This document shows positions 4,935 to 18,975 of a DNA stretch of 64,000 bases, piece after piece (within the stretch, counting starts at the first letter, position 1; every line of letters begins with the position of its first letter). The stretch is from positions 1 to 64,000 of the forward strand of contig JAIQFK010000018.1 of NCBI GenBank assembly GCA_020073305.1, in the 5' to 3' direction. Origin of the DNA: Terriglobia bacterium (lineage in GTDB: Bacteria; Acidobacteriota; Terriglobia; Bryobacterales; Bryobacteraceae). The notes below the pieces were generated by a model, which worked only from the letters and a program-made list of their open reading frames with translations, did no database searches and was not told the DNA's origin. The translations under genes and the position numbers were made by a program.

Positions 4935-5931
4935 CTATTCCGCCGATACCCGCACCAGTTGCTTGCCGGTGTTCTCGCCCTGCAACATGCCGATGAAGGC
5001 GCGCGGCGCGTTTTCGATGCCGTCCACGAACTGCTCGCGGTATTTCAGCTTGCCGGCCTTCAACCACGCGGCCATCTGCTTCAGCCCTTCGGCGTAACGG
5101 GACGCAAACTGGAAGACCAGGAAACCCTCCGCGCGGGCCTGCTTCACAATGAGATGCCACAGCAGGCGCGGGCCGGTCTCGGGCTTGTCGGCATTGTATT
5201 GCGCGATCTGACCGCAGACCGCGATGCGCGCGCCGGTGTTGATGAGCGGGAATACGGCGTCCGTGATGGTTCCCCCGACGTTGTCGAAATAAACGTCGAC
5301 GCCTTTGGGGCACAGTTCCGCCAGTTTGGCCGCATAGTTTGTCGTGGTCTTGTAATTGAAGGCTGCGTCAAAGCCCAGTTCATCGCGCAGCCACGCAACT
5401 TTCTGGTCGCCGCCGGCGATGCCCACCACGCGGCAGCCTTGGATCTTCGCGATCTGTCCGACGAGCGAGCCAACGGCGCCCGCCGCACCTGAGACCACCA
5501 CGGTCTCTCCAGGGCGCGGTTTGCCGATTTCGAGGAGGCCGAAGTATGCGGTAAGCCCGGGCATGCCGAGAACGCCGAGCGCGGTTGAAACAGGCGCGAG
5601 CGATGGATCGATCTTGCGCACTCCGGCGCCGTTCGAAACGGCGAACTGTTGCCACCCGAAAAAGCCTTCCACCACGTCGCCGGGCTGGAACTGCGGATTC
5701 TGCGATGCGGCTACCTTGCCCACAGCTCCCGCGCCCATGACTTCGCCGATCTGCACCGGAGGAGCGTAGGATTTCACGTCGTTCATGCGGCCGCGCATGT
5801 ACGGATCGACCGATACATAGAGCGTGCGGATCAGGAATTCGCCGGGGCCGGGCTCAGGAACCGGAGACTCGACCAGCTTGAAGTCGGAAAGCTTCGGCAG
5901 GCCCGAAGGCCGGGCAGCGAGTGTGATCTGT

Positions 5932-5948
<17 letters not shown>
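4935..5948 (-). CDS. curA: NADP-dependent MDR-family alkenal/enone reductase (CurA-like)
   Basis: This 337-residue protein belongs to the zinc-independent medium-chain reductases that include curcumin reductase CurA and prostaglandin/leukotriene reductases. The opening ([20 protein letters not shown]) and [11 protein letters not shown] are family hallmarks. A Rossmann motif [13 protein letters not shown] near residue 152 binds NADP. These enzymes reduce alpha,beta-unsaturated carbonyls in the cytoplasm. Its start overlaps the end of the acyl-CoA dehydrogenase gene by 17 nt, so the two are co-transcribed and may act on the same unsaturated substrates. The exact substrate cannot be read from sequence. 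Confidence 0.85.
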
Positions 5949-7143
<1,195 letters not shown>

Positions 7144-7178
7144 AAAGAATCTTTGCAACAATACCACATGGTCCAGTA

Positions 7179-8240
7179 ATGCGAATCGGAATCATAGGCG
7201 CGGGTGGGGCGGCGCGCGGCATTCATCTGCCGGGGTTCCGGCTGTGTCCCGATGCGGAGATCGCCGTTCTTTGCGAGCCGGATCAAAACGCCGCCACGAC
7301 AACCGGGATCGCAGACGTGTGTGCAGATTATCGTGAGGTGCTTGGCCGCCGGGACATCGACGCCGTGGTGGTGGCGACTCCGAATTATCTGCATCGCGAG
7401 ATCGTGCTCGCGGCGCTCGCCCGCGGCAAGCACGTACTGTGCGAAAAGCCGCTGGCTCTCGACCGGGCGGCAGCCGAAGAGATGCTGCGCGCCGCCGAGC
7501 GTTCCGGCAAAGTACACATGACCGCCTTCACCTACCGTTTCACGCCGGCGATCCAATACGCGCGGCGTCTGGTCGAACAAGGCGAGTTGGGCGACCTGCG
7601 CACGGTGCGCGCGGCATACCTGATGGCGCTTTCCGGACACGTGCTCGGATGGCGGTCCGAGAAGCGGCTGGCCGGCTCGGGAGTGCTGGCGGATATCGGA
7701 TCGCACCTGGTGCACCTGGTCCAGTGGCTGGCCGGAGACATCCGGGCGCTGACGGCGAGCGAGCGGCGATTCCGCGAAGATCCGACGTCGGATGTCGAGG
7801 ACTGGGTCGCGTTCCTGGCGGAATTTGCGACGGGCGCGTGCGGCACGTTCGAGATTTCGCGCGTGGCGCCGGGCCGCGGAGCGGGCATTACCGAGGACAT
7901 TTTCATCGAGCTTTATGGCACACGGGGCAGCCTGGTTTTTTCGCTGCAGGACCCCTGGGGTTTGATGGCCGCTCTCGGGGAAGACGGAAAAGATCCGGCG
8001 CGGCCGCTGCGGCATTACGACGTGCCCGAAGAATTTCTCAAGCTTCCGGGTTCGCCCCGCGACATTCACGCGCACGACCGGCGGTGGGGCTACCGCTACG
8101 ACCAGGCGTTTCAGTTCATCGAGAGCGTGAAACTGGGGCAGGCGCGGGCGCCTTCCTTCGAGGACGGCGTGCGCTGCCAGGCAGTGCTGGATGCCGCGCT
8201 TGAATCAGCCGGATCGAGGAGATGGGTGGAGGTGCGGTGA
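7179..8240 (+). CDS. Gfo/Idh/MocA-family NAD(P)-dependent oxidoreductase
   Basis: This 353-residue protein has the N-terminal Rossmann motif [16 protein letters not shown] (residues 4-19) and the catalytic EKPLA motif at residues 89-93. A beta-sheet C-terminal domain follows. Family members oxidise or reduce sugars, inositols or their derivatives, and the substrate is not predictable here. There is no signal peptide, so it is cytoplasmic, unlike many acidobacterial relatives with Tat leaders. It is transcribed alone and divergently from the acyl-CoA dehydrogenase. Confidence 0.88.
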
Positions 8241-8257
8241 GGAGGGCGAAACGGGGG

Positions 8258-8444
8258 GCGAAACGGGGACAGTTGAGCGTCATGTCGCCGAAGCGACACC
8301 CGCGAGAATGAAAAATTGGGCAAAGCCGCAATCATGAACATTCAGCAAGCGCGCGACGGGGACAGGCCGCTGCGTCCACGGAGAGCGCGTCGGGAAGGTA
8401 GAGATTCGCTCGATTAGGGACGCAGAAGTCAGTCCCCGTTTCGC
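8258..8444. repeat. REP-like intergenic element with 13-bp inverted ends
   Basis: GCGAAACGGGGAC at 8258-8270 is repeated inverted as GTCCCCGTTTCGC at 8432-8444, enclosing about 160 bp. Inside is a perfect hairpin TGTCGC-CGAA-GCGACA (8283-8298). The left end is preceded by a partial tandem copy (GCGAAACGGGG at 8247-8257). No convincing gene lies within. It resembles a small palindromic intergenic mobile element. Confidence 0.5.
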
Positions 8445-8455
8445 GAGAGTGTGCG

Positions 8456-9055
8456 TTACTGAATTGTGCTTTTGCCTTCTGTTGCCAGGTCGGACGGGAT
8501 CACGTTACGGTTGATGTGCCGGTCGAGATCGATCACGTAGGTTTCCTTGGCTTCAACGAGCACGGGCGAGTGCGTGGCGGTGACGATGCGAAATTTCTTC
8601 TGGTCCACCAGTTCCATAAGCATCTTGAGAATGCGCCGCTGGTTCGAAACAGAGAGCGCCATCTCCGGCTCATCCAGCAGCAGCACGGTGCCGGCAGGAA
8701 AACTGGGAAAGGTCTCGCGAAACATGGACAGCATCACCTGGCCGTGGCTGGCCATCTGGACGAATTCCTTCATCTCGGGCTGATGGTCAAATAACTCCAG
8801 ATGGGTGCGCGGGTTGTGCTGCTCGGCGTCAAAGAGCAGCACGCGATCGGCGTTGGCCTCTCCGCCCTCGACCTTATAGATGTATCCGTCGACCTTGTCG
8901 CCGCGGAGTGCATAGTAAATGGCATGCAGAAGCGTGGACTTCCCGCAACCGTTCTCGCCCGTGAGCATGATCAGTGGATGCGAGAGGTCTACAATCAGCG
9001 GCATGTGGAAGTTCAGGTTGGCGAACACCGGATGAGCCAGAATCTTGAGAAACAT
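8456..9055 (-). CDS. AAA-type ATPase, OLD/RecF-like stand-alone
   Basis: A short 199-residue ATPase with Walker A GENGCGKST at residues 34-42, an SMC-like ABC signature region, Walker B TVLLLDEPEMALS near 123-135, and the switch histidine in TATHSPVLVEA. This layout matches the small AAA_21/OLD-like ATPases often annotated as 'AAA family ATPase'. It has no nuclease or coiled-coil extension, so the partner is unknown. It starts 21 nt after the acyl-CoA ligase stop on the same strand and is probably co-transcribed, although a functional link is not obvious. Confidence 0.8.
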   Translation of the reverse strand: MFLKILAHPVFANLNFHMPLIVDLSHPLIMLTGENGCGKSTLLHAIYYALRGDKVDGYIYKVEGGEANADRVLLFDAEQHNPRTHLELFDHQPEMKEFVQMASHGQVMLSMFRETFPSFPAGTVLLLDEPEMALSVSNQRRILKMLMELVDQKKFRIVTATHSPVLVEAKETYVIDLDRHINRNVIPSDLATEGKSTIQ

Positions 9056-9076
9056 AAAAGGACTCCCCAGGATAGC

Positions 9077-10693
9077 TCAGGTTGACCGCTCGGTTCCCGC
9101 GGCGGCGCGGTTTTTCAACTGCGTGCGCATGACTTTCTTGTCGAACTTGCCGACGGAGGTTTTGGGGATCGAGTCGACGAACAGCACGTCGTCGGGCAGC
9201 CACCACTTGGCGAACCGAGGTTCGAGAAATGCCAGGATCTCCTCGCGGGTGACGCGATCCTGAAACTGCGGTTTGGGAACCACCAGGGCGAGAGGCCGCT
9301 CGCCCCATTTCGGATGCTCGACCGCCACCACGGCGGCTTCGAGAACTTTGGGGTGGCCCATGATGGCGTTTTCCAGATCGACGCTGGAGATCCATTCCCC
9401 GCCGCTCTTGATGACGTCCTTGGCGCGGTCGACCAGTTGCACGTAGCCTTCCGGGTCAATGGTGGCCACGTCACCGGTGCGGAACCAGCCGTCGGTGAAG
9501 GCCGACGCCGATCGCGCATCGTTGTAGTAGCCGCTGGTGACCCATGGGCCGCGCACCTGCACTTCGCCCATGGCAGTGGCGTCCCATGGAACCTCGCGGC
9601 CCTGAGCGTCCACCGCGCGAAGGTCCAACCCGACCACCGGCAAGCCCTGCTTGGCGCGGGTGCGAAAACACTCGTCGTCCGGACGGTTGGCGAAATCGCA
9701 TTTCAGTGTGGAGATGGTACCGATGGGCGTGGTTTCGGTCATGCCCCAGAGTTGCCGCACCTCGATGCCGTGCTGCTTTTCATACGTTTCGATGAGCTGG
9801 CGCGGTATGGCCGAGCCCGCGCTGATGGCGAGCCGCATGCTCGACATGTCGAACTTTTCTTCCTGCAGCAGGCTATCGAGCCCGATCCAGATGGTCGGAA
9901 CGCCGCCCATGACGGTGACTTTCTCGTTCTGGATGAGTTCCGCGAGATCGCGCGGCTGCGGGTGTTCTCCGGGGAGCACGATCTTCGCACCCACCATGAT
10001 GGCGGCGAATGGCTTGCCCCATCCGTTGGCGTGAAACATGGGCACCACCTGCATCACCACATCCCGCTCGCTCAAGGCAAACGCGTCGGCCATGGCAAAA
10101 GCCAGGCTGTGCAGGTAAAACGCGCGATGGCTGTAGACCACGCCTTTGGGATTTCCCGTGGTGCCGGAGGTGTAACACATGCCCGCCGCGCAATTCTCAT
10201 CGAGGCGCGGCCATGGGTACGAGGTGTCCGGCGCGGCGGCCAGCAACTGCTCGTACTCGCTGTTCCCGGTTCCGATCACAATCAACCGCTCGACACACGG
10301 AATGCGATCGCGAATCTTGTCGAGAAGCGGAACGAGCGATTCATCCACAAAGATCACGCGGTCTTCGGCGTGGTTAATGATGTAGGCGAGATCGTCCGGG
10401 GAAAGGCGCAGATTGAGCGTGTGCAGCACGGCGCCGTAGCACGCGACGGCAAAATACAGCTCGAGGTGCTGATAGGTATTCCAGCAAAGCGTGCCGACGC
10501 GGTCTCCCGGCTTGATCCCCAGTTGCCGCAGTCCATGCGCCAGGCGGTGTGTGCGCCCGTAGTAATCACGGTAACGATAGCGATGCATGCCGCGAGGCGT
10601 GCGCGTCACGATTTCTTTGCTCGGGAAGAGTTTCGCCGCGCGCTCGAGAAAGTGGTGCAGGGTCAGCGGATAGTCCATCATGAGGCCGGTCAT
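9077..10693 (-). CDS. Long-chain/medium-chain acyl-CoA synthetase
   Basis: Start chosen at the ATG at 10693 ([20 protein letters not shown]), giving 538 residues, normal for FadD-type adenylate-forming enzymes. Motifs: AMP-binding [42 protein letters not shown] and the C-terminal lysine region [12 protein letters not shown]. It should activate a fatty acid with ATP and CoA. It is close to the acyl-CoA dehydrogenase and enone reductase genes, consistent with a fatty or aromatic acid breakdown role. An upstream in-frame extension runs antisense through the neighbouring gene and is not protein-like. Confidence 0.92.
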
Positions 10694-10753
10694 TTTTTCA
10701 CCCCCGCCTGGAGATACAGAACCAGTGTGCCCCTCCATGTTATAAGCGAATAT

Positions 10754-12553
10754 ATGACGCGTGTGATCGCCGGGCTGATGGCGGCAGCCGCGCTGGCGTG
10801 GGGAGCGACGGACGATCCGCTCAAGGCGCTCCGCAGGGAACATCCCCGCCTCATTCTGCTTGACAGCGATCTCGACCATATCCGGGCGCTCATTCAGCAG
10901 AATCCGCTGGCGCACAAAGTTCACGCCGATCTGGTCAAGGAAGCCGAGAGGCTCATGACCACGCCGCCGGTGGAGTATAAGCTCGTGGGCCCGCGCCTGC
11001 TCGCGCAAAGCCGCCATTGCCTGGAACGCGTCTATACCCTGGCGCTGCTGTACCGGTTGGATGGGAAACAGCCGTACCTGGAGCGTGCCGTCCGGGAATT
11101 GCGCGCAGCCGCCGAGTTCAAGGACTGGAATCCTTCCCACTTTCTGGATACGGCCGAGATGACGCACGCATTTGCGATCGGCTACGACTGGCTGTATCCC
11201 GCGTTGAGCCAGGATGAGCGCACGTGGATCCGCGCGGCGCTGGTCGAAAAGGGTCTGAACCCGGGCCTGGCGGCTTATGAAACACAGGCGTCTTGGGTGG
11301 GCAGCCGGATGAACTGGAACCAGGTTTGCAATGGCGGAATCGGCATTGGCGCGCTGGCCGTCGCGGACGAAGAGCCGGACAAGAGCCGTGTGCTGATTCG
11401 CAACGCACTCGAATCCCTGCCCCGAGCTTTAGCGGCTTATGCACCCGACGGGGGCTGGGCTGAAGGGCCGGGCTACTGGCACTACGGCACCAGCTACGCC
11501 GTGTACTTTATTGCGGCGCTCGAATCCGCACTGGGCACGGATTTCGGGTTGACCGCCGCCAAAGGCTTCGACCGCACGGGGCGCTTTCGCGTTTACTTCA
11601 GCGGCCCATCGGGAAAGGCATTCAATTACGCCGATGCGCACGATCATGTGGATCCGGCTGCGGAAATGTTCTGGCTGGCCCATCGTTTTATGGAGCCGGT
11701 CTATTCATGGCAGGAACAACGAATCCTTGAAGCGGGCGGGACTCCAGACGCGTTGGATTTGATCTGGTTTCAACCGGAGGGCCGGAGCCCGAAGCAAGAC
11801 GGCTGGCCGCTGGAGGCCATTTTTCATGGCGTGCAAGTGACGTTTCTGCGAAGCGCCTGGGACGATCCCGATGCCATTTTTGTGGGGGTGAAGGGCGGCG
11901 ACAATAAGGCCAATCATAGCCATCTGGATCTCGGCAGTTTCGTTCTGGACGGCGGTGGAGTCCGCTGGGCGCTCGATGCCGGGGCCGACGATTACAATCT
12001 CCCGGGCTACTTCGGCCGGCAGCGCTGGGCTTATTACCGCATGCGCACGGAAGCGCATAATACGGTGGTCATCGACAACGAAAACCAGGATCCGCACGCG
12101 GAAGCCGGCATTACCGGCCACCTGTTTTCTCCCGGTCTCTCCTGGGTTGAGTTGGACCTCACCCACGCGTACGCGCGCCGGCTAAAGCAGTTTCACCGCA
12201 AGATTGGCATTGTGCAGGGCCAGCAGGTGTTCGTTGAGGATTCACTCGAATCCGAGCAGCCGGTGGAAGCGCTCTGGGGCATGCTGACCGACGCGGACGT
12301 GGCTCTGAACGGCCAGACGGCCGAACTGCAAAAAAATGGCTGGACCCTCTCCGCTGAAATTCTCTCGCCCCGGCACGCGGTATTCGACGTGGCTTCGGCG
12401 TTCGCGCCTGCGCCGCAAGCCTCGAATCCGGGCGTCAAGAAACTGGTGGTGAGGCTCGGCGAAAAAGTCACCGAGATGGACCTGAAGCTGACCTTCACGT
12501 TGCATCGCACCGGTCAACCCAAACCCAAGATCACGGAAAAAATCGGAGGCTGA
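10754..12553 (+). CDS. Secreted heparinase II/III-like polysaccharide lyase family protein
   Basis: The start at 10754 gives 599 residues with a short signal peptide (MTRVIAGLMAAAALAWGAT). An alpha/alpha-toroid follows (about 40-300; AMTHAFAIGYDWLYPALS-type helices and NWNQVCNGGIGIGALA). The C-terminal beta-sandwich contains NHSHLDLGSFVLDGGGVRW and AHNTVVIDN, both typical of the heparinase II/III-like domain. Such enzymes cleave uronic-acid polysaccharides by elimination, but substrate cannot be assigned. The CAP-domain gene follows directly (TGA then TTG), so the two are co-expressed. Confidence 0.85.
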   Translation: MTRVIAGLMAAAALAWGATDDPLKALRREHPRLILLDSDLDHIRALIQQNPLAHKVHADLVKEAERLMTTPPVEYKLVGPRLLAQSRHCLERVYTLALLYRLDGKQPYLERAVRELRAAAEFKDWNPSHFLDTAEMTHAFAIGYDWLYPALSQDERTWIRAALVEKGLNPGLAAYETQASWVGSRMNWNQVCNGGIGIGALAVADEEPDKSRVLIRNALESLPRALAAYAPDGGWAEGPGYWHYGTSYAVYFIAALESALGTDFGLTAAKGFDRTGRFRVYFSGPSGKAFNYADAHDHVDPAAEMFWLAHRFMEPVYSWQEQRILEAGGTPDALDLIWFQPEGRSPKQDGWPLEAIFHGVQVTFLRSAWDDPDAIFVGVKGGDNKANHSHLDLGSFVLDGGGVRWALDAGADDYNLPGYFGRQRWAYYRMRTEAHNTVVIDNENQDPHAEAGITGHLFSPGLSWVELDLTHAYARRLKQFHRKIGIVQGQQVFVEDSLESEQPVEALWGMLTDADVALNGQTAELQKNGWTLSAEILSPRHAVFDVASAFAPAPQASNPGVKKLVVRLGEKVTEMDLKLTFTLHRTGQPKPKITEKIGG

Positions 12554-13054
12554 TTGCGTCTGTGCTGCGTACTCCTGCTTGCTCTGGTTCTCCTGCTGGC
12601 GGGTTGGCACCGTCCCGCCGCCTCGAGGCCGCGTGCCGATGAAGACGATCCGTTAGGCCCTCTCGCGCGCAAGGTATTTGCTCTCGCGAACCGGCAGCGC
12701 CGTTTGCACGGTGTTCATGAGCTGGAGTGGAGTGAGGCTCTCGCCGAGCCAGCGCGCCGGCACAGTATGGATATGATGCGGAGCGGTTTTTTCTCCCACA
12801 CGGACCTGGCAGGGTCTACTCCGGGCTTGCGTCTGCGCGCTGCCTCCATTTCCTGGAGCCGGTGCGGCGAAAACATCTTCCGGGAGCACGGCATGGATGA
12901 TCCCGCCGACGCCGCCATCGAAGGCTGGATGAGAAGCCCCTCGCACCGGCAGAGTCTTCTCGATCCGCTATTTACTCAGACTGGAGTCGGCATCGCCATC
13001 AGCCCAGATACGGACTATTTCATTACGCAGGAACTCATTCGTCCGTTGAAGTAA
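12554..13054 (+). CDS. Secreted CAP/SCP-domain protein
   Basis: Translation probably begins at a TTG that abuts the stop of the heparinase-like gene. The 166 residues carry a leucine-rich signal peptide (LCCVLLLALVLLLAGWHRPA) and a CAP domain with its conserved pieces: ALAEPARRHSMDMM, the GENI motif, and GWMRSPSHRQSLLDP. The fold is clear, but bacterial CAP proteins have varied and mostly unproven roles in the envelope or outside the cell. No accessory repeats are present. Confidence 0.8.
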   Translation: MRLCCVLLLALVLLLAGWHRPAASRPRADEDDPLGPLARKVFALANRQRRLHGVHELEWSEALAEPARRHSMDMMRSGFFSHTDLAGSTPGLRLRAASISWSRCGENIFREHGMDDPADAAIEGWMRSPSHRQSLLDPLFTQTGVGIAISPDTDYFITQELIRPLK

Positions 13055-13203: not shown

Positions 13204-14787
13204 ATGCACTCACAAATGGCTTGCCGCGGGAGAATCTGGAACAATCTACCGTTGTCCGTTAAGGGACTGACGTTACTCATGATTCCGGCACCTGCTCTGT
13301 TAGTCGCGGCGATCGTGCTGAGTGGGACGATCAAAGAAGAAAAACGGGCGCTGGCCGCAGTGGATCAGGTGACAACGGCCAGACAGCGCCTTCAGGAAGT
13401 CAGCGCCCTGCTCAAGGCGCCGGGTGCTCCACAGCAGGACTACCGGACACTCACGCAACTGAGCAGGGACCTCGATCCAGTGAGCTCGGACCCCAACCGC
13501 CGGCGAGAGATCGAAGGCGCGATCCAGGAGAAGATCGAGTCGTTGGCTGCTCTCAGCGCGACGAACTCGCCGGAGGATGCCTTACTCGACAAGAACCGTC
13601 AGGCTACGGAGAGCCTCCAGTCGTCTGTAAGTGCGCTCACATTCGGGTACGATCACTTACTGTCGAGTGGTCTAAGTTATGTAAAGACGATTCGCGCGAA
13701 GGAGTTCACCGTCTGTTTTCAGGGAGCTTTTATCTTCCTGTTAGGCGAGTTTATGGCCGCGACTGTATTTCTGACGGCGATCACGGGGCAGATTCAAACC
13801 CTAAAGGCCAACTCGCACCGGCTGGCGCAGGGCCTGTCACTGGAGCCGCTTTTTGCCGACAACTGGGAGTTGAATCAAATCGGGCATCATCTGATTCAGG
13901 CTTCCGTAGTCCTAAATCAGCAAGAGCGAGATCTCGAGAAGCACAACGATCGGAGTCCGGATTCCTCCGCCGCCGAGCGGCAACTGGCGAACGAACAGAA
14001 CGAAGCCATGGTGTCCATATTGCGTGACCGGAACCAGGAAATCGCGGGGGCGCTCTCCAGCGCGCGCGAGGCGCTGGCGGCGAAAGGACGCTTCCTGGCC
14101 GATCTCTCCCGCGAACTGCGGATTCCGCTGACCAGCATCCTGGGATTTTCGGAACTTCTGTATGACGGCAAGCTGGGCGCGCTGAGCGAGCAGCAGAAAG
14201 GGTGCCTGAGCGACATCCTCGCAGGTTCGAAAAGGATGTTGCAACTCACCGACAGCGTTCTGGGGGCCATCAGCAGCGAGAGCGCGCCGGCGCCCGCTCC
14301 GGCGAGTGCGGTAGATATCGAGAGACTTGCTAAGGATGTGAAGTACCTGCTCGAGCCGGCCGCGCGCAGGAAGGGAGTCCGGGTGGAAGTCGAGATCGAT
14401 CCGGGGCTGCGGGAGGTCGATGGCGATCCCGAAAAGCTGAAGCCGTTGCTGCATCAGCATATATCCGACGCGATCCAGTTCACGCCGCACGATGCCGTGC
14501 TTGAACTGCGCCTGCGCCCGGAAGGCGAGAATGCGCTGCGGCTGGAAGTGCACATCCGCGGCCTTGGCCTGCTTTCAAAAGATGTCGTCCGGCTGTTCCC
14601 GGAGTTCCATGTCGACCTGGTGTCGGTCAAGATTCGAGCGGAACAGCAGCACGTGGCCGCGGCTGAAGACCACAACGTCTTCTATGCCATCCTGCCGGGC
14701 GTTGCGCGGCGGGCCGAATCCACTGTACGGGCCCGCGATTCGAAGGCCCGCGCCGCGGCAAAGAACTCCACGGCGCTGATTCAGTAG
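13204..14787 (+). CDS. Membrane histidine kinase homologue lacking the phospho-acceptor histidine
   Basis: A 527-residue protein with a transmembrane helix at about 20-40, a predicted extracytoplasmic helical domain, a second helix near 165-190, a coiled linker, and a HisKA-like region. The H-box reads FLADLSRELRIPLTSILGFSELL, where the usual SHELR is SRELR: Arg303 replaces the histidine. The N-box is ISDAIQFTP (Asp422 for the usual Asn), and the G1 box (RGLGLLSKDV) has lost the DxGxG pattern. It therefore looks like a pseudokinase, acting as a sensor or scaffold without autophosphorylation. It heads an operon with a multi-receiver regulator, a HEAT protein and a glycosyltransferase. Confidence 0.85.
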   Translation: MHSQMACRGRIWNNLPLSVKGLTLLMIPAPALLVAAIVLSGTIKEEKRALAAVDQVTTARQRLQEVSALLKAPGAPQQDYRTLTQLSRDLDPVSSDPNRRREIEGAIQEKIESLAALSATNSPEDALLDKNRQATESLQSSVSALTFGYDHLLSSGLSYVKTIRAKEFTVCFQGAFIFLLGEFMAATVFLTAITGQIQTLKANSHRLAQGLSLEPLFADNWELNQIGHHLIQASVVLNQQERDLEKHNDRSPDSSAAERQLANEQNEAMVSILRDRNQEIAGALSSAREALAAKGRFLADLSRELRIPLTSILGFSELLYDGKLGALSEQQKGCLSDILAGSKRMLQLTDSVLGAISSESAPAPAPASAVDIERLAKDVKYLLEPAARRKGVRVEVEIDPGLREVDGDPEKLKPLLHQHISDAIQFTPHDAVLELRLRPEGENALRLEVHIRGLGLLSKDVVRLFPEFHVDLVSVKIRAEQQHVAAAEDHNVFYAILPGVARRAESTVRARDSKARAAAKNSTALIQ

Positions 14788-14807
14788 CGCCTTGGGCAAA
14801 GCTATTC

Positions 14808-16319
14808 ATGAGCAGTGAGACGGTACTGGTCGTCGACGACGCGGCTGCGAATCGCAAGCTCACTGAGCTTGTGCTGGCTAGCGCCGGTTATCAGGTGTGC
14901 ACCGCGCAGGACGCCGAAGAGGCGCTCAGATTGGTGAAAGACATCAGGCCGCGCGCCGTACTCACGGATATCCGTCTGCCGGGTATGGACGGACTCGAAC
15001 TGACCCGGCGGCTGCGGACAGATCCCGCGCTGCAAGACACCATCTTTCTCGCTGTCACGGCCTGCGTGCTGCGCAGCGACGAGCAGAACGCTACTGAAGC
15101 CGGGTTCGATGGCTACATCGTGAAGCCCTACGACACGCGCAAGCTGCCTGCCATCGTGCGCCGGTATTTGTCGCGAACCGCGGCCGCAGGTCTGATCCCG
15201 CCGGCAACGCCTGCAACCGCTCCTGGGACGCTTCCTGCCGCCGAGCTACGCAGACGATTCAAGGCGGAGGGCGCCGAGCAGAGCCGCCGCCTGATGGCAA
15301 CGCCAGGAACCGGCTTTGATCCGCAGGAGGCTCGCACGACGTTCCAGCGGTGGGCCGGCCTGGGCAACACGCTGGGACTGGAACAGGTCGCCCACCTGGC
15401 CCAGGAGGCCCAAAGGCTTCTCGACGGCCCGCATCCGCAGACTTCGCCGCGACTGGAGGAGATCGTCGGCCAGCTTTTCCGGCTCTTCACGGAGCGCCCG
15501 CCGCGCCGTCGAGACACGGTGCTGTTGCCGGAACCGATGATCCAGCAGCTCGCCGGAAACAAGCTCGGTTTGATCGGGTTCGAGGCCGAAGAGACGCGCC
15601 GCCTGGCAGAGGTATTCGGCAATGCTCGCGCCACCGTCCAGGCGCTCGAGGACGACGACGTGGCGCCGAATTCCGAGGCGCTTCAGTCAGTGGACCTGGT
15701 GATCTTCAATATCCGGCATGATACGCCTCCACCGGAATGGATGAAGCGCAAGGATCTGGCGCGTGTGGAGCAGCCGATTCTTTTCGTGGGATCCCGGGAT
15801 GTGCTGCTGGAACACGGCATTTCCCTCAAGAGCGGCGAGCATGACTTTCTGGTCTGGCCCTGGGATCCCGAAGAAGCGATTATGCGCGCCTGCCTGGCCC
15901 TGGGCCGCGCAGGCAGCCGCCAGCCCCGCAAGAGGAGTTCGCCGCACCGCGCCAGCATCGTCATGGCGGACGACGACGCCACCACTCTGGCTCTGGTCAA
16001 AGCCACGCTCGAGAGCTATCAGATCGACTGCCGGATCGCCGCCGATGGCGGGCAGGCGCTCGAAATGATCGCCGCCCATCCACCCAGCGCGGTCATTCTG
16101 GACGTCAACGTGGCCAACATGGACGGCTTCGAAGTCCTCGCTGCATTGAAACGCGACGAAGCCACCAGCGACGTCCCCGTGGTTTTTCTCACCTCCAGGC
16201 AACAGGAGACCGACATCGTGCGCGCCTTCGGGCTGGGCGCCGATGACTACATTGTGAAACCGTTCAGCCCCATGGAGCTGGCGGCGCGCATCAAGCGATT
16301 GATCCGGAAGTCCGCATGA
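14808..16319 (+). CDS. Multi-receiver response regulator (REC - HPt-like - degenerate REC - REC)
   Basis: In this 503-residue protein, residues 1-120 form a canonical receiver (VLVVDD at 7-11, phospho-acceptor Asp54 in VLTDIRLPGMDG, lysine in GYIVKPY). Residues about 145-215 look like an HPt four-helix domain (TFQRWAGLGNTLGLEQVAHL), but the expected histidine aligns with Gln180. Residues about 245-370 are a receiver-like fold without acidic pocket or acceptor. The C-terminal receiver (about 382-500) is intact, with MADDD, ILDVNVANMDG and YIVKPF. There is no DNA-binding or enzymatic output, so it may act by protein contact. It overlaps the next gene by ATGA. Confidence 0.85.
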   Translation: MSSETVLVVDDAAANRKLTELVLASAGYQVCTAQDAEEALRLVKDIRPRAVLTDIRLPGMDGLELTRRLRTDPALQDTIFLAVTACVLRSDEQNATEAGFDGYIVKPYDTRKLPAIVRRYLSRTAAAGLIPPATPATAPGTLPAAELRRRFKAEGAEQSRRLMATPGTGFDPQEARTTFQRWAGLGNTLGLEQVAHLAQEAQRLLDGPHPQTSPRLEEIVGQLFRLFTERPPRRRDTVLLPEPMIQQLAGNKLGLIGFEAEETRRLAEVFGNARATVQALEDDDVAPNSEALQSVDLVIFNIRHDTPPPEWMKRKDLARVEQPILFVGSRDVLLEHGISLKSGEHDFLVWPWDPEEAIMRACLALGRAGSRQPRKRSSPHRASIVMADDDATTLALVKATLESYQIDCRIAADGGQALEMIAAHPPSAVILDVNVANMDGFEVLAALKRDEATSDVPVVFLTSRQQETDIVRAFGLGADDYIVKPFSPMELAARIKRLIRKSA

Positions 16320-17518
16320 GCGCGCGCTCCGATCCTCATGTGCCTGAGCGCCGCGCGCGGCTGTTCATTTACCTGAAAACCCTGTGCGTGCTCCTGAGCT
16401 ACATCGCCCTTACGTGGGTGATTCATCGCGCGTATATGCGCAAGCACGTGCCAGACGCGGAGCTGTCGCTGGCTCTTTCGTTCACGGTGCAGCAAGTCAC
16501 GGCTATTTTCACTCTGCTCGCCATTTCCTTCGCCACGAAGTTTGTACGTTACTATCGGGCGCAGCGGGCGGCCCGTTTCCAACCGTTCATTCGCGAAAGA
16601 CTCATCCTGCATTTAAACGGATTGGATCAGTGGACGGAGATGCGCCGGATGCGCGCGAGAACTCCGCGTGAACTCGAAGATTGCCTGGTGCAGATTCTGG
16701 CCTCGATTCACGGCGCGGGACGGGAGCGGCTCACCGAAGTTGCGCGGGCGTTTGGATTGCTGCGCAAATGGCAAAAGCAGAGTCACACCAGAAACGCGAA
16801 GCGGCGCCGCAAGGCGATCAGCCGGCTTTGCCTGCTTGGGCCCTTAGCGCAACCGGATCTCCTTGAAGCGCTCCATGATCCGGACGATCTGGTGAGAGTC
16901 GAAGCAGCCCGAGCGCTGGCGGGCTCCGGGGACGCGCAGATGCTCGCGGCGGTTTTCTACATGGCGCTCGACCAGAACCGCTTGGTGCGCGCCATTCTGA
17001 CCGAGGCCCTGCGGCCGCAGGCGAGCGAGTTGTACGGTGTGGCGGCGCCCGAGGCGCTGCGTTCGCCGGACCCGAAGCGCGTGGTAGCAGCGCTCGAAAT
17101 CCTGCGGGCCTGGCGGAAATCGGCGGCGATCCCTCAACTTCCTGCGTTGCTGGCACACGGCGACGCAGCCGTGCGGGCAGCGGCCTTGCACCTGGTGCCG
17201 CAGGCCGGGCTGACTCCGGAATACGAGGGGCCGATCTGGCGCGCCATCGAGGACCCGGATGCTGAGGTGCGCGCTGCCGCCGCCGAAGTGTGCGGAAAGC
17301 TCAAGCTTGCCTCATCGCTGCGCCTATTGCAGCGCGCATTGGAAGATACCGCGCCGCGTACGGTGCTGGTCTCCGCGTATGCGCTGGCTGAGCTGGGGGT
17401 CAACGGCTGCAAGGTGCTGGAATCCGAGGTTCTCTCCGGCGATCCGCTTCGGGCTGCCGCCGCGCTCGAAGCCCTGGAGCACGCCAAGCTCAACCGTGCC
17501 GCCACGGTGGGAATGTAA
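16316..17518 (+). CDS. HEAT-repeat membrane protein
   Basis: A 400-residue protein starting within the preceding stop codon (ATGA). Two transmembrane helices near residues 18-36 and 48-72 are followed by a basic cytosolic segment and then about five to six HEAT-like helical pairs (for example DPDDLVRVEAARALAGSGD and DPDAEVRAAAAEVCGKL). HEAT arrays bind other proteins, so the likely job is to tether the regulator to the glycosyltransferase encoded next, whose ATG overlaps this stop (TAATG). The role is inferred from coupling and fold. Confidence 0.8.
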   Translation: MSARSDPHVPERRARLFIYLKTLCVLLSYIALTWVIHRAYMRKHVPDAELSLALSFTVQQVTAIFTLLAISFATKFVRYYRAQRAARFQPFIRERLILHLNGLDQWTEMRRMRARTPRELEDCLVQILASIHGAGRERLTEVARAFGLLRKWQKQSHTRNAKRRRKAISRLCLLGPLAQPDLLEALHDPDDLVRVEAARALAGSGDAQMLAAVFYMALDQNRLVRAILTEALRPQASELYGVAAPEALRSPDPKRVVAALEILRAWRKSAAIPQLPALLAHGDAAVRAAALHLVPQAGLTPEYEGPIWRAIEDPDAEVRAAAAEVCGKLKLASSLRLLQRALEDTAPRTVLVSAYALAELGVNGCKVLESEVLSGDPLRAAAALEALEHAKLNRAATVGM

Positions 17519-18975
17519 TGGACTGGCTGCTTCTCTTCTACCGCTCGTTCGCCTACCTGGTGCACGGCATCATCGTCTACGTGGCCACCATCAACCTCAT
17601 CTACTTCATCATGATGGCGCTCGGATATCTGGCGCTCAGCCGCCATAACGCGCGACTGACACCGGAAGAGCGCGACGCCATCCTGAAATCGCCGCTGGCG
17701 CCGGAGGTCGCCGTGGTCGCGCCCGCTTACAACGAGGCCCTGACCGTTCGCGAAAGCGTGCGCGGGATGTTGAAGCTGAACTACCCCAATCATCAGGTCA
17801 TCGTGGTGAACGACGGCTCGAAAGACGACACACTCAAAATCCTCGTCGAAGAGTTCCGGCTCTACAAATCCAGCCGCGTACTCATCGGCAGCCTGCCGCA
17901 TCAACCGATTCGCGCCATTTACGAATCACGCGATCCCATCCGGCTCATTGTGGTCGACAAGGCAAACGGCGGCAAGGCCGATTCGTTGAACGCCGGGCTG
18001 AATGTGGCGCGTGCGCCGCTGGTGGCCGCGGTGGATTCCGATTCCCTCCTCGATCCGGATTCGTTGCTGCACGTAGTGAAGCCGTTTCTCGAGGATCCGG
18101 AGAACGTGATCGCGTGCGGCGGCATCATCCGCGTGGTGAACGGCTGCGAGGTGCGCCACAGCCGCGTAAGGACGGTCTCGACAGCGTCTTCGGTTCTCGC
18201 GCTGTTTCAGACGATCGAATATCTGCGCGCGTTTCTGGGCGGTCGCGTGGCCTTGAGCTTCATGAATTCGCTGTTGATCATCTCCGGCGCGTTCGGCGTA
18301 TTTCGACGCGATGTCGTAATGACGGCGGGCGGCTTTGCGGTGAAGACGGTGGGCGAAGATATGGAACTGGTGGTCCGCCTGCACGAGCAGTATCGCACCA
18401 GGAAGAGGCCCTACAAGATTCTCTATGCTTCCGAGCCCCTCTGCTGGACGGAGGTCCCCGAGAGCGCCAAGATCCTGCAACGGCAGCGGAACCGGTGGCA
18501 GCGCGGCACCGTCGAGAGCATCTCGCTTCACCGGCGAATGCTGTTCAATCCGAAGTTCGGCATCCTGGGCATGTTCGCGATTCCGTATTTCACGCTGTTC
18601 GAAATGTTCGGCCCGGCGGTGGAGTGCCTCGGTTACGCGCTGACCTTGACTGGTCTGGCGGTGGGGATCATCGCACCCGAAGTCGCCATTCTGTTCTTCG
18701 TGGTCTCGGTGCTATTCGGAATTCTGCTGTCGATGAGCGCCATCGTGCTGGAAGAATTCACCACGCGGCGCTACCCGCTGGTGACGGATGTGCTGTGGCT
18801 ATTCACGGCGGCAGTTGCCGAGAATCTGGGCTTCCGGCAACTATTGACGTGGTGGCGGACACAAGGACTGATTGACGGCCTCAAGGGCAAAACCGGCTGG
18901 GGCGCCATGGAGCGCCGCGGATTCCAGCAGAAGGCGGCGCCCGTACCGCCTGGTGAGCGCGTGCTCGCCCCGTAG
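17518..18975 (+). CDS. Processive family 2 glycosyltransferase, membrane-embedded
   Basis: The 485 residues show an N-terminal transmembrane segment, a GT-A domain (VVAPAYNEALTVRESV, VVNDGSKDDTLKIL, NGGKADSLN, the VDSDSLLDPD metal site, GED acceptor motif) and the QRNRWQRG motif of processive synthases such as PgaC and cellulose or hyaluronan synthases. Several C-terminal transmembrane helices follow. It likely polymerises and exports a polysaccharide across the inner membrane. Coupled translation with the HEAT protein and regulator genes suggests control by direct protein contact. No c-di-GMP PilZ domain is present. The stop abuts the stop of the convergent RNB gene with no gap. Confidence 0.9.
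   Translation: MDWLLLFYRSFAYLVHGIIVYVATINLIYFIMMALGYLALSRHNARLTPEERDAILKSPLAPEVAVVAPAYNEALTVRESVRGMLKLNYPNHQVIVVNDGSKDDTLKILVEEFRLYKSSRVLIGSLPHQPIRAIYESRDPIRLIVVDKANGGKADSLNAGLNVARAPLVAAVDSDSLLDPDSLLHVVKPFLEDPENVIACGGIIRVVNGCEVRHSRVRTVSTASSVLALFQTIEYLRAFLGGRVALSFMNSLLIISGAFGVFRRDVVMTAGGFAVKTVGEDMELVVRLHEQYRTRKRPYKILYASEPLCWTEVPESAKILQRQRNRWQRGTVESISLHRRMLFNPKFGILGMFAIPYFTLFEMFGPAVECLGYALTLTGLAVGIIAPEVAILFFVVSVLFGILLSMSAIVLEEFTTRRYPLVTDVLWLFTAAVAENLGFRQLLTWWRTQGLIDGLKGKTGWGAMERRGFQQKAAPVPPGERVLAP

Follow-up and report, generated by a model that had tools for sequence, protein, structure and literature searches.

The window, meaning the whole 64,000-nucleotide stretch of DNA that was analysed, contains an operon from a soil bacterium that comprises four intact open reading frames (ORFs), all on the plus strand and spanning positions 13204-18975. 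The genes (g1 to g4) and the features within them are as follows.

13204-14787, plus strand: g1, 527 aa, membrane sensor pseudokinase with two transmembrane (TM) segments, a HisKA-like dimerisation domain and a degenerate ATPase domain
14080-14262, plus strand: HisKA domain of g1, aa 293-353 (Pfam PF00512, 1.7e-13)
14110-14112, plus strand: Arg303 codon of g1, at the phospho-His position of active relatives (alignment of 14 kinases)
14311-14703, plus strand: degenerate ATPase region of g1 (kinase alignment; no Pfam HATPase_c)
14808-16319, plus strand: g2, 503 aa, regulator with the layout REC1-Hpt-pseudoREC-REC3, without a DNA-binding or GGDEF domain
14808-15173, plus strand: receiver domain REC1 of g2, phospho-acceptor Asp54 kept (alignment)
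15225-15497, plus strand: Hpt-like domain of g2 (weak Pfam Hpt, 0.12; modelled helical bundle; aligns with Hpt-bearing relatives)
15345-15347, plus strand: Gln180 codon of g2, at the Hpt phospho-His position (alignment)
15543-15923, plus strand: pseudo-receiver domain of g2 (alignment and model)
15951-16313, plus strand: REC3 of g2, the conserved output receiver, with the DDD pocket, Asp432, Thr462 and Lys484 kept (alignment)
16316-17518, plus strand: g3, 400 aa, membrane-anchored HEAT-repeat protein, proposed synthase co-subunit
16340-16615, plus strand: N-terminal two-helix membrane anchor of g3 (hydropathy; modelled helices 9-44 and 48-100)
16631-17509, plus strand: HEAT solenoid of g3 (Pfam, model and Foldseek)
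17518-18975, plus strand: g4, 485 aa, processive GT2 polysaccharide synthase of the GT-A subfamily

The first two genes are separated by 20 nt, g2 and g3 overlap at an ATGA (16316-16319), and g3 and g4 overlap at a TAATG (17516-17520), which confirms the coordinates and junctions of a preliminary description that had reported four co-directional genes with stop/start overlaps. The GC3 of all four ORFs is coding-type (0.72-0.81) and their codon bias is normal. Pfam recognises HisKA in g1, two confident Response_reg domains and a weak Hpt in g2, HEAT_2 in g3, and Glycos_transf_2 in g4; it finds no DNA-binding, GGDEF, EAL or PilZ domain in the four proteins, so the earlier statement that DNA-binding and c-di-GMP domains are missing holds locally, for the window proteins. 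Among the hits listed for the genome of origin (38 for HEAT_2 and 31 for GT2), a HEAT gene and a glycosyltransferase (GT) gene are neighbours only at this operon, suggesting that their adjacency is more than chance. A CAP-domain gene (12554-13054) and a heparinase II/III-like gene (10736-12553) lie just 5' of the operon and were not found beside the operons of relatives.

In an alignment of 14 kinases, g1 reads FLADLSRELR where active relatives read FLAxxSHELR, the N-box Asn is replaced by Asp, the G1-box DTGxGI has become IRGLGL, and the G2-box GTGLGL is missing; Pfam returned no HATPase_c match in g1 even at E<=1. Compared with an active sensor histidine kinase, g1 thus possesses the HisKA dimerisation domain and lacks the phospho-His and the N, G1 and G2 boxes of HATPase_c, and its two TM segments are evident from hydropathy, in keeping with its earlier reading as a pseudokinase. 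Sequencing error was rejected as the source of this state, given that the frame is intact, an ordinary Arg codon occupies the His position, and the ATPase boxes are also lost. The kinases beside related operons are canonical in 12 of the 14 aligned cases, the exceptions being g1 and the kinase of locus L030 (genome G122), a pseudokinase with Asn for His and lost ATPase boxes. The GT of L030 is the sister of g4 (72% identity, tree support 99), suggesting that the pseudokinase is a trait of a small clade. A search for closer pseudokinase orthologues within the family, in which just two further genomes of the genus were found, turned up only other kinases, matched over the kinase core alone. Judged from sequence, an active kinase is the rule beside the operons of relatives, and the pseudokinase is a local, lineage exception, as the adjacent kinase is catalytically normal in nearly all of them.

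The regulator g2 was modelled with a mean pLDDT of 80 as a (beta-alpha)5 fold, a helical bundle and two further (beta-alpha)5 folds, although a pTM of 0.36 makes the arrangement of the domains in this model unreliable. Two confident Response_reg matches and a third, modelled receiver-like fold bear out the earlier assignment of a multi-receiver regulator, and Pfam detects no output domain, DNA-binding or cyclase, beside the REC and weak Hpt domains. A degenerate GGDEF was considered for the middle domain and rejected, as the modelled secondary structure is (beta-alpha)5. The Hpt position holds Gln180, whereas the other HEAT-linked, Hpt-bearing relatives in the alignment have His; with His replaced by Arg in g1 and by Gln in g2, the operon has thus lost its two transfer histidines. 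The receiver pockets of g2 (Asp54, Asp432, Thr462 and Lys484) are nevertheless kept, and across relatives the HEAT-adjacent REC retains its Asp in 76 of 85 rows and its Lys in 84 of 85.

The loss of both histidines in one operon, together with the pseudokinase of the nearest relative, L030, could mean that signalling in the window is decaying or locked, leaving a constitutive or externally driven synthase. This is considered unlikely, since the ORFs are all intact with normal codon bias, the receiver Asp and Lys are kept, and the pseudokinase state is common to two genera with sister GTs.

Three further observations concern regulators elsewhere. In the receiver upstream of the fused HEAT-GT gene, Glu stands in place of the phospho-acceptor Asp at four of the five fusion loci (L134, L150, L153 and L170), which might reflect a receiver locked into something like its active state. 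A truncated REC-Hpt copy at L050:9536-10264 (G000:C16) shares 63% identity with a regulator from the same genus and has lost the Hpt His; a separate kinase gene adjoins it. A Gemmatimonadota regulator (L128:5881-7863, start codon as predicted) carries an N-terminal ArsR-type HTH and is the sole examined regulator with a DNA-binding domain.

The HEAT protein g3 was modelled with a mean pLDDT of 90.8 as two long N-terminal helices followed by a solenoid, and its Foldseek matches (alphaRep, PP2A scaffold and importin solenoids) are all binding scaffolds. Hydropathy indicates two TM segments in g3, and at least one N-terminal TM segment is present in 96 of 97 HEAT homologues. The preliminary description of a HEAT scaffold is correct as to the presence of a HEAT partner, but a free scaffold is less apt than a synthase co-subunit for a protein that is membrane-anchored.

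In g4, the D, DxD, ED and QxxRW motifs of processive GT2 synthases and the TM helices are all present, and NDGS, D-x-DS, GED and Q-R-x-R-W are invariant in the family alignment. Among the PDB entries matched by the GT profile are cellulose and hyaluronan synthases. The GT2 Pfam match, the invariant motifs and the TM helices together corroborate the earlier assignment of a processive glycosyltransferase. HEAT and GT form one ORF in five loci (L134, L150, L153, L157 and L170), which constitute one fully supported clade across Spirochaetota and Bacillota, and in Sphingobacterium (L154) a sulfatase domain is fused to the GT. Of the evidence from sequence, these fusions speak most strongly for a joint function of the GT with the HEAT protein and, in certain lineages, with the sulfatase enzyme, and the HEAT-GT fusions argue for physical coupling. 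Gene adjacency and fusion as such establish functional coupling only. No REC-HEAT fusion was seen among the GT-selected loci.

Within the order, the HEAT protein is present in 22 of 200 genomes, and the HEAT profile matches 39 of 396 genomes of the phylum. The regulator adjoins the HEAT gene in all 25 loci examined within the order and a GT does so in 21; one of the four loci without a GT neighbour stops near a contig end. Two GT classes occur in these loci, GT-A (55-72% identical, as in the window) and GT-B (~30%), and neighbour clustering identifies as recurring extra neighbours a YaiO-type TPR and outer-membrane barrel protein (TIGR04390), a TPR protein, and a sulfatase-superfamily membrane enzyme. 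In one acidobacterial clade, both the adjacent kinase and the REC1-Hpt part are missing, and the regulator keeps only pseudoREC-REC.

The GT-A alignment was scanned against 84,980 species genomes and gave 80 loci, chosen by GT similarity alone. A HEAT gene lies directly upstream of the GT in 73 of the 76 loci that extend 900 bp or more in that direction: 72 by the counting rule, plus L158, whose overlapping HEAT ORF falls outside the distance window of that rule. In the remaining three, all Nitrospira, HEAT is found elsewhere in the same locus. A receiver ORF is located upstream in 62 of the 66 HEAT-positive loci with 2.5 kb upstream, and four have none directly upstream. YaiO is present within 40 of 72 loci, and half of the 32 loci without it belong to Bacillota; most Bacillota have no outer membrane. 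The GT tree contains 16 bacterial phyla: Acidobacteriota, Actinomycetota, Bacillota, Bacteroidota, Balneolota, Bdellovibrionota, Cloacimonadota, Deinococcota, Elusimicrobiota, Fidelibacterota, Gemmatimonadota, Ignavibacteriota, Myxococcota, Nitrospirota, Pseudomonadota and Spirochaetota, with the qualification that many records are metagenome bins, so that single taxon labels may be wrong, as is probably the case for L182, "Klebsiella". Existing annotation bears out the gene order: RR-YaiO-HEAT-GT2-(Hpt) in Mesorhizobium ciceri and RR-TPR-HEAT-GT2 in Erythrobacter (both NCBI annotation), TPR-HEAT-GT in Deinococcus (annotated record), and RR-HEAT-GT2 on one haloarchaeal plasmid, from Haloarcula (NCBI annotation). 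A tblastn search of plasmids with the window HEAT protein gave no match, whereas the GT query did find the system on a plasmid. A protein that recurs downstream in Bacillota and Bacteroidota loci (L121:10349-13618, L145:10496-11704 and L142:12521-13702) has an N-terminal DKTV motif, matches no Pfam family, and may be an additional component of the system.

In the window, the genes for a receiver, a TM-anchored HEAT protein and a GT-A follow one another in this order, and on this comparative evidence the conserved unit is REC-HEAT-GT, often with YaiO, and not a set of four genes. The expectation that all four genes are kept together is therefore borne out for the receiver, HEAT and GT genes, and not for the kinase, which is variable and, as noted, missing from one acidobacterial clade. 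The preliminary description had stated that its reading would fall if the orthologous genes were not kept together; REC, HEAT and GT were instead found together across the bacterial tree.

In the family, RR-HEAT pairs are also found with GT-B and, in one case, with a PilZ-DnaJ protein, suggesting that HEAT is not exclusive to GT-A; the pair looks like a portable module. In that single case (L051:7120-10548, G164:C230), the regulator and HEAT genes are followed by a gene for a PilZ and DnaJ protein in place of the GT. It is doubtful that HEAT serves in assembly or localisation only, with the receiver acting on another target, for instance a different kinase or a component of export: this would suit the five HEAT-GT fusions, the lack of any REC-HEAT fusion and the general role of HEAT solenoids as binding scaffolds, but it fits poorly with a receiver ORF 5' of HEAT in nearly all testable loci and with an RR-HEAT pair that stays when the GT class changes.

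The 62 receivers divide into 42 single REC proteins, 15 with GGDEF, and five multi-domain proteins without GGDEF. The layout of the 15 is Hpt-REC-GGDEF-REC, and in the GGDEF-bearing regulators of Bacillota relatives (L121, L145, L139, L166, L178, L179 and others) some GGDEF domains have an intact GGEEF and others are clearly degenerate. The sequences of these relatives suggest that c-di-GMP takes part in other family members; hence the earlier proposal of a polysaccharide switch free of PilZ and c-di-GMP control stands at the window locus but does not extend to the family. c-di-GMP could even be the real switch, with the regulator setting a local pool that HEAT-GT senses in many members and, here, with cyclases and PilZ proteins encoded elsewhere in the genome, which has nine GGDEF and 12 PilZ hits, one GGDEF gene adjoining a YaiO module on contig C41. 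This is the least probable of the alternatives, as the majority of typed loci have a single REC without GGDEF, the motif is missing from several GGDEF domains, Pfam finds no PilZ in the window GT and HEAT protein, and the haloarchaeal locus has no annotated GGDEF.

The genome of origin has one YaiO gene, on contig C41, with TPR and sulfatase genes following it. In this region (L185, G000:C41:36000-54000), the YaiO barrel, TPR and sulfatase-superfamily genes stand in a row at 5304-9921, and the GGDEF gene and two PilZ genes are nearby. The YaiO, TPR and sulfatase genes match those adjoining the operons of relatives, suggesting that the machine may be split in two here, and for the sulfatase the closest relative is the one in L030 (52%), the locus that also holds the nearest GT. 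By analogy of gene content, they are likely to be the displaced export and modification half of the system. Their position on another contig made the barrel and the sulfatase-superfamily enzyme invisible to the earlier reading.

The preferred reading, with a probability of roughly 0.6, is that the operon encodes a synthase for an envelope polysaccharide, with a HEAT co-subunit on which the receiver protein docks, and that this synthase is switched by contact, modulated by the pseudokinase and served by export in trans. The operon would be the inner-membrane half of a synthase-dependent machine in which g4 polymerises a glycan and threads it through the inner membrane. As the dedicated membrane-anchored co-subunit of g4, g3 would offer its solenoid as the docking surface for g2, its anchor setting HEAT beside the GT much as PgaD is positioned beside PgaC. 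A change of state in the conserved C-terminal REC of g2 would, through contact with the solenoid, turn synthesis on or off, a control step that would need no DNA binding and, in the window lineage, no local c-di-GMP module. Acting as the membrane input, g1 probably has an allosteric effect on g2 or on the complex, and any phosphate on REC1 or REC3 would have to come from another kinase, given that neither the catalytic His in g1 nor the Hpt His in g2 has been retained. The C41 genes probably supply export and modification in trans. The sequences directly establish the domains, their gene order and conservation, the HEAT-GT and GT-sulfatase fusions of relatives and the missing histidines; we infer the REC-HEAT contact, the direction of control, the identity of the polymer and the link to C41, the last from the analogy in gene content. 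A broader proposal, held tentatively and at slightly less than even odds, is that these loci form a distinct synthase class of bacteria and haloarchaea, which is switched when a phospho-receiver directly binds a membrane-anchored HEAT co-subunit and which in the window lineage has come to be driven by a pseudokinase, its own phosphorelay no longer used.

Synthase-dependent exopolysaccharides are core parts of the biofilm matrix, and their known fast control is mostly through c-di-GMP. The occurrence of the set in 16 bacterial phyla and one archaeon points to a second general control logic, from two-component receiver to HEAT to synthase, which, if true, would be a protein-contact counterpart to c-di-GMP/PilZ control. 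The physical claim is open to direct test in the five naturally fused HEAT-GT proteins, and how the switch works without its own phosphorelay can be followed in the pseudokinase lineage as a natural experiment.

No published description of a REC-HEAT-GT set was found in the open-licence literature, outside which a named system could exist; the preliminary description likewise knew of no named system with the gene set of the window. Rubrivivax EmbRS was considered as the same system and rejected, as EmbR carries an HTH domain and the loci differ. The poly-N-acetylglucosamine synthases PgaABCD and IcaADBC resemble the family in having a processive GT2 at the inner membrane and an exporter composed of TPR and an outer-membrane barrel. 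The Pga synthase needs a small TM partner, PgaD, in place of which the window family has a HEAT-bearing TM partner, together with a dedicated receiver protein; g4 scores 139 bits against an equivalog cut-off of 422 for PgaC/IcaA (NCBIfam TIGR03937). The cellulose synthase BcsA of Bcs systems, which carries PilZ, is likewise a GT2 with D,D,D,QxxRW, and in some Bcs systems the glycan is decorated by BcsG, a transferase of the alkaline phosphatase superfamily; g4, however, has no PilZ and scores 55 bits against the BcsA cut-off of 699 (NCBIfam). The E. coli yaiO/yaiP neighbourhood shares the YaiO-family barrel, and yaiP is a GT, but we know of no HEAT or receiver partner of these genes. PleD-type REC-REC-GGDEF regulators are similar to the Hpt-REC-GGDEF-REC regulators of Bacillota and other relatives, whereas g2 of the window has no GGDEF and ends in REC. 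Each of the protein types is known and annotated singly, the REC-HEAT-GT set is apparently undescribed, and the system is best compared to synthase-dependent export of polysaccharide, here under an unusual and very widely distributed control module that would act by protein contact.
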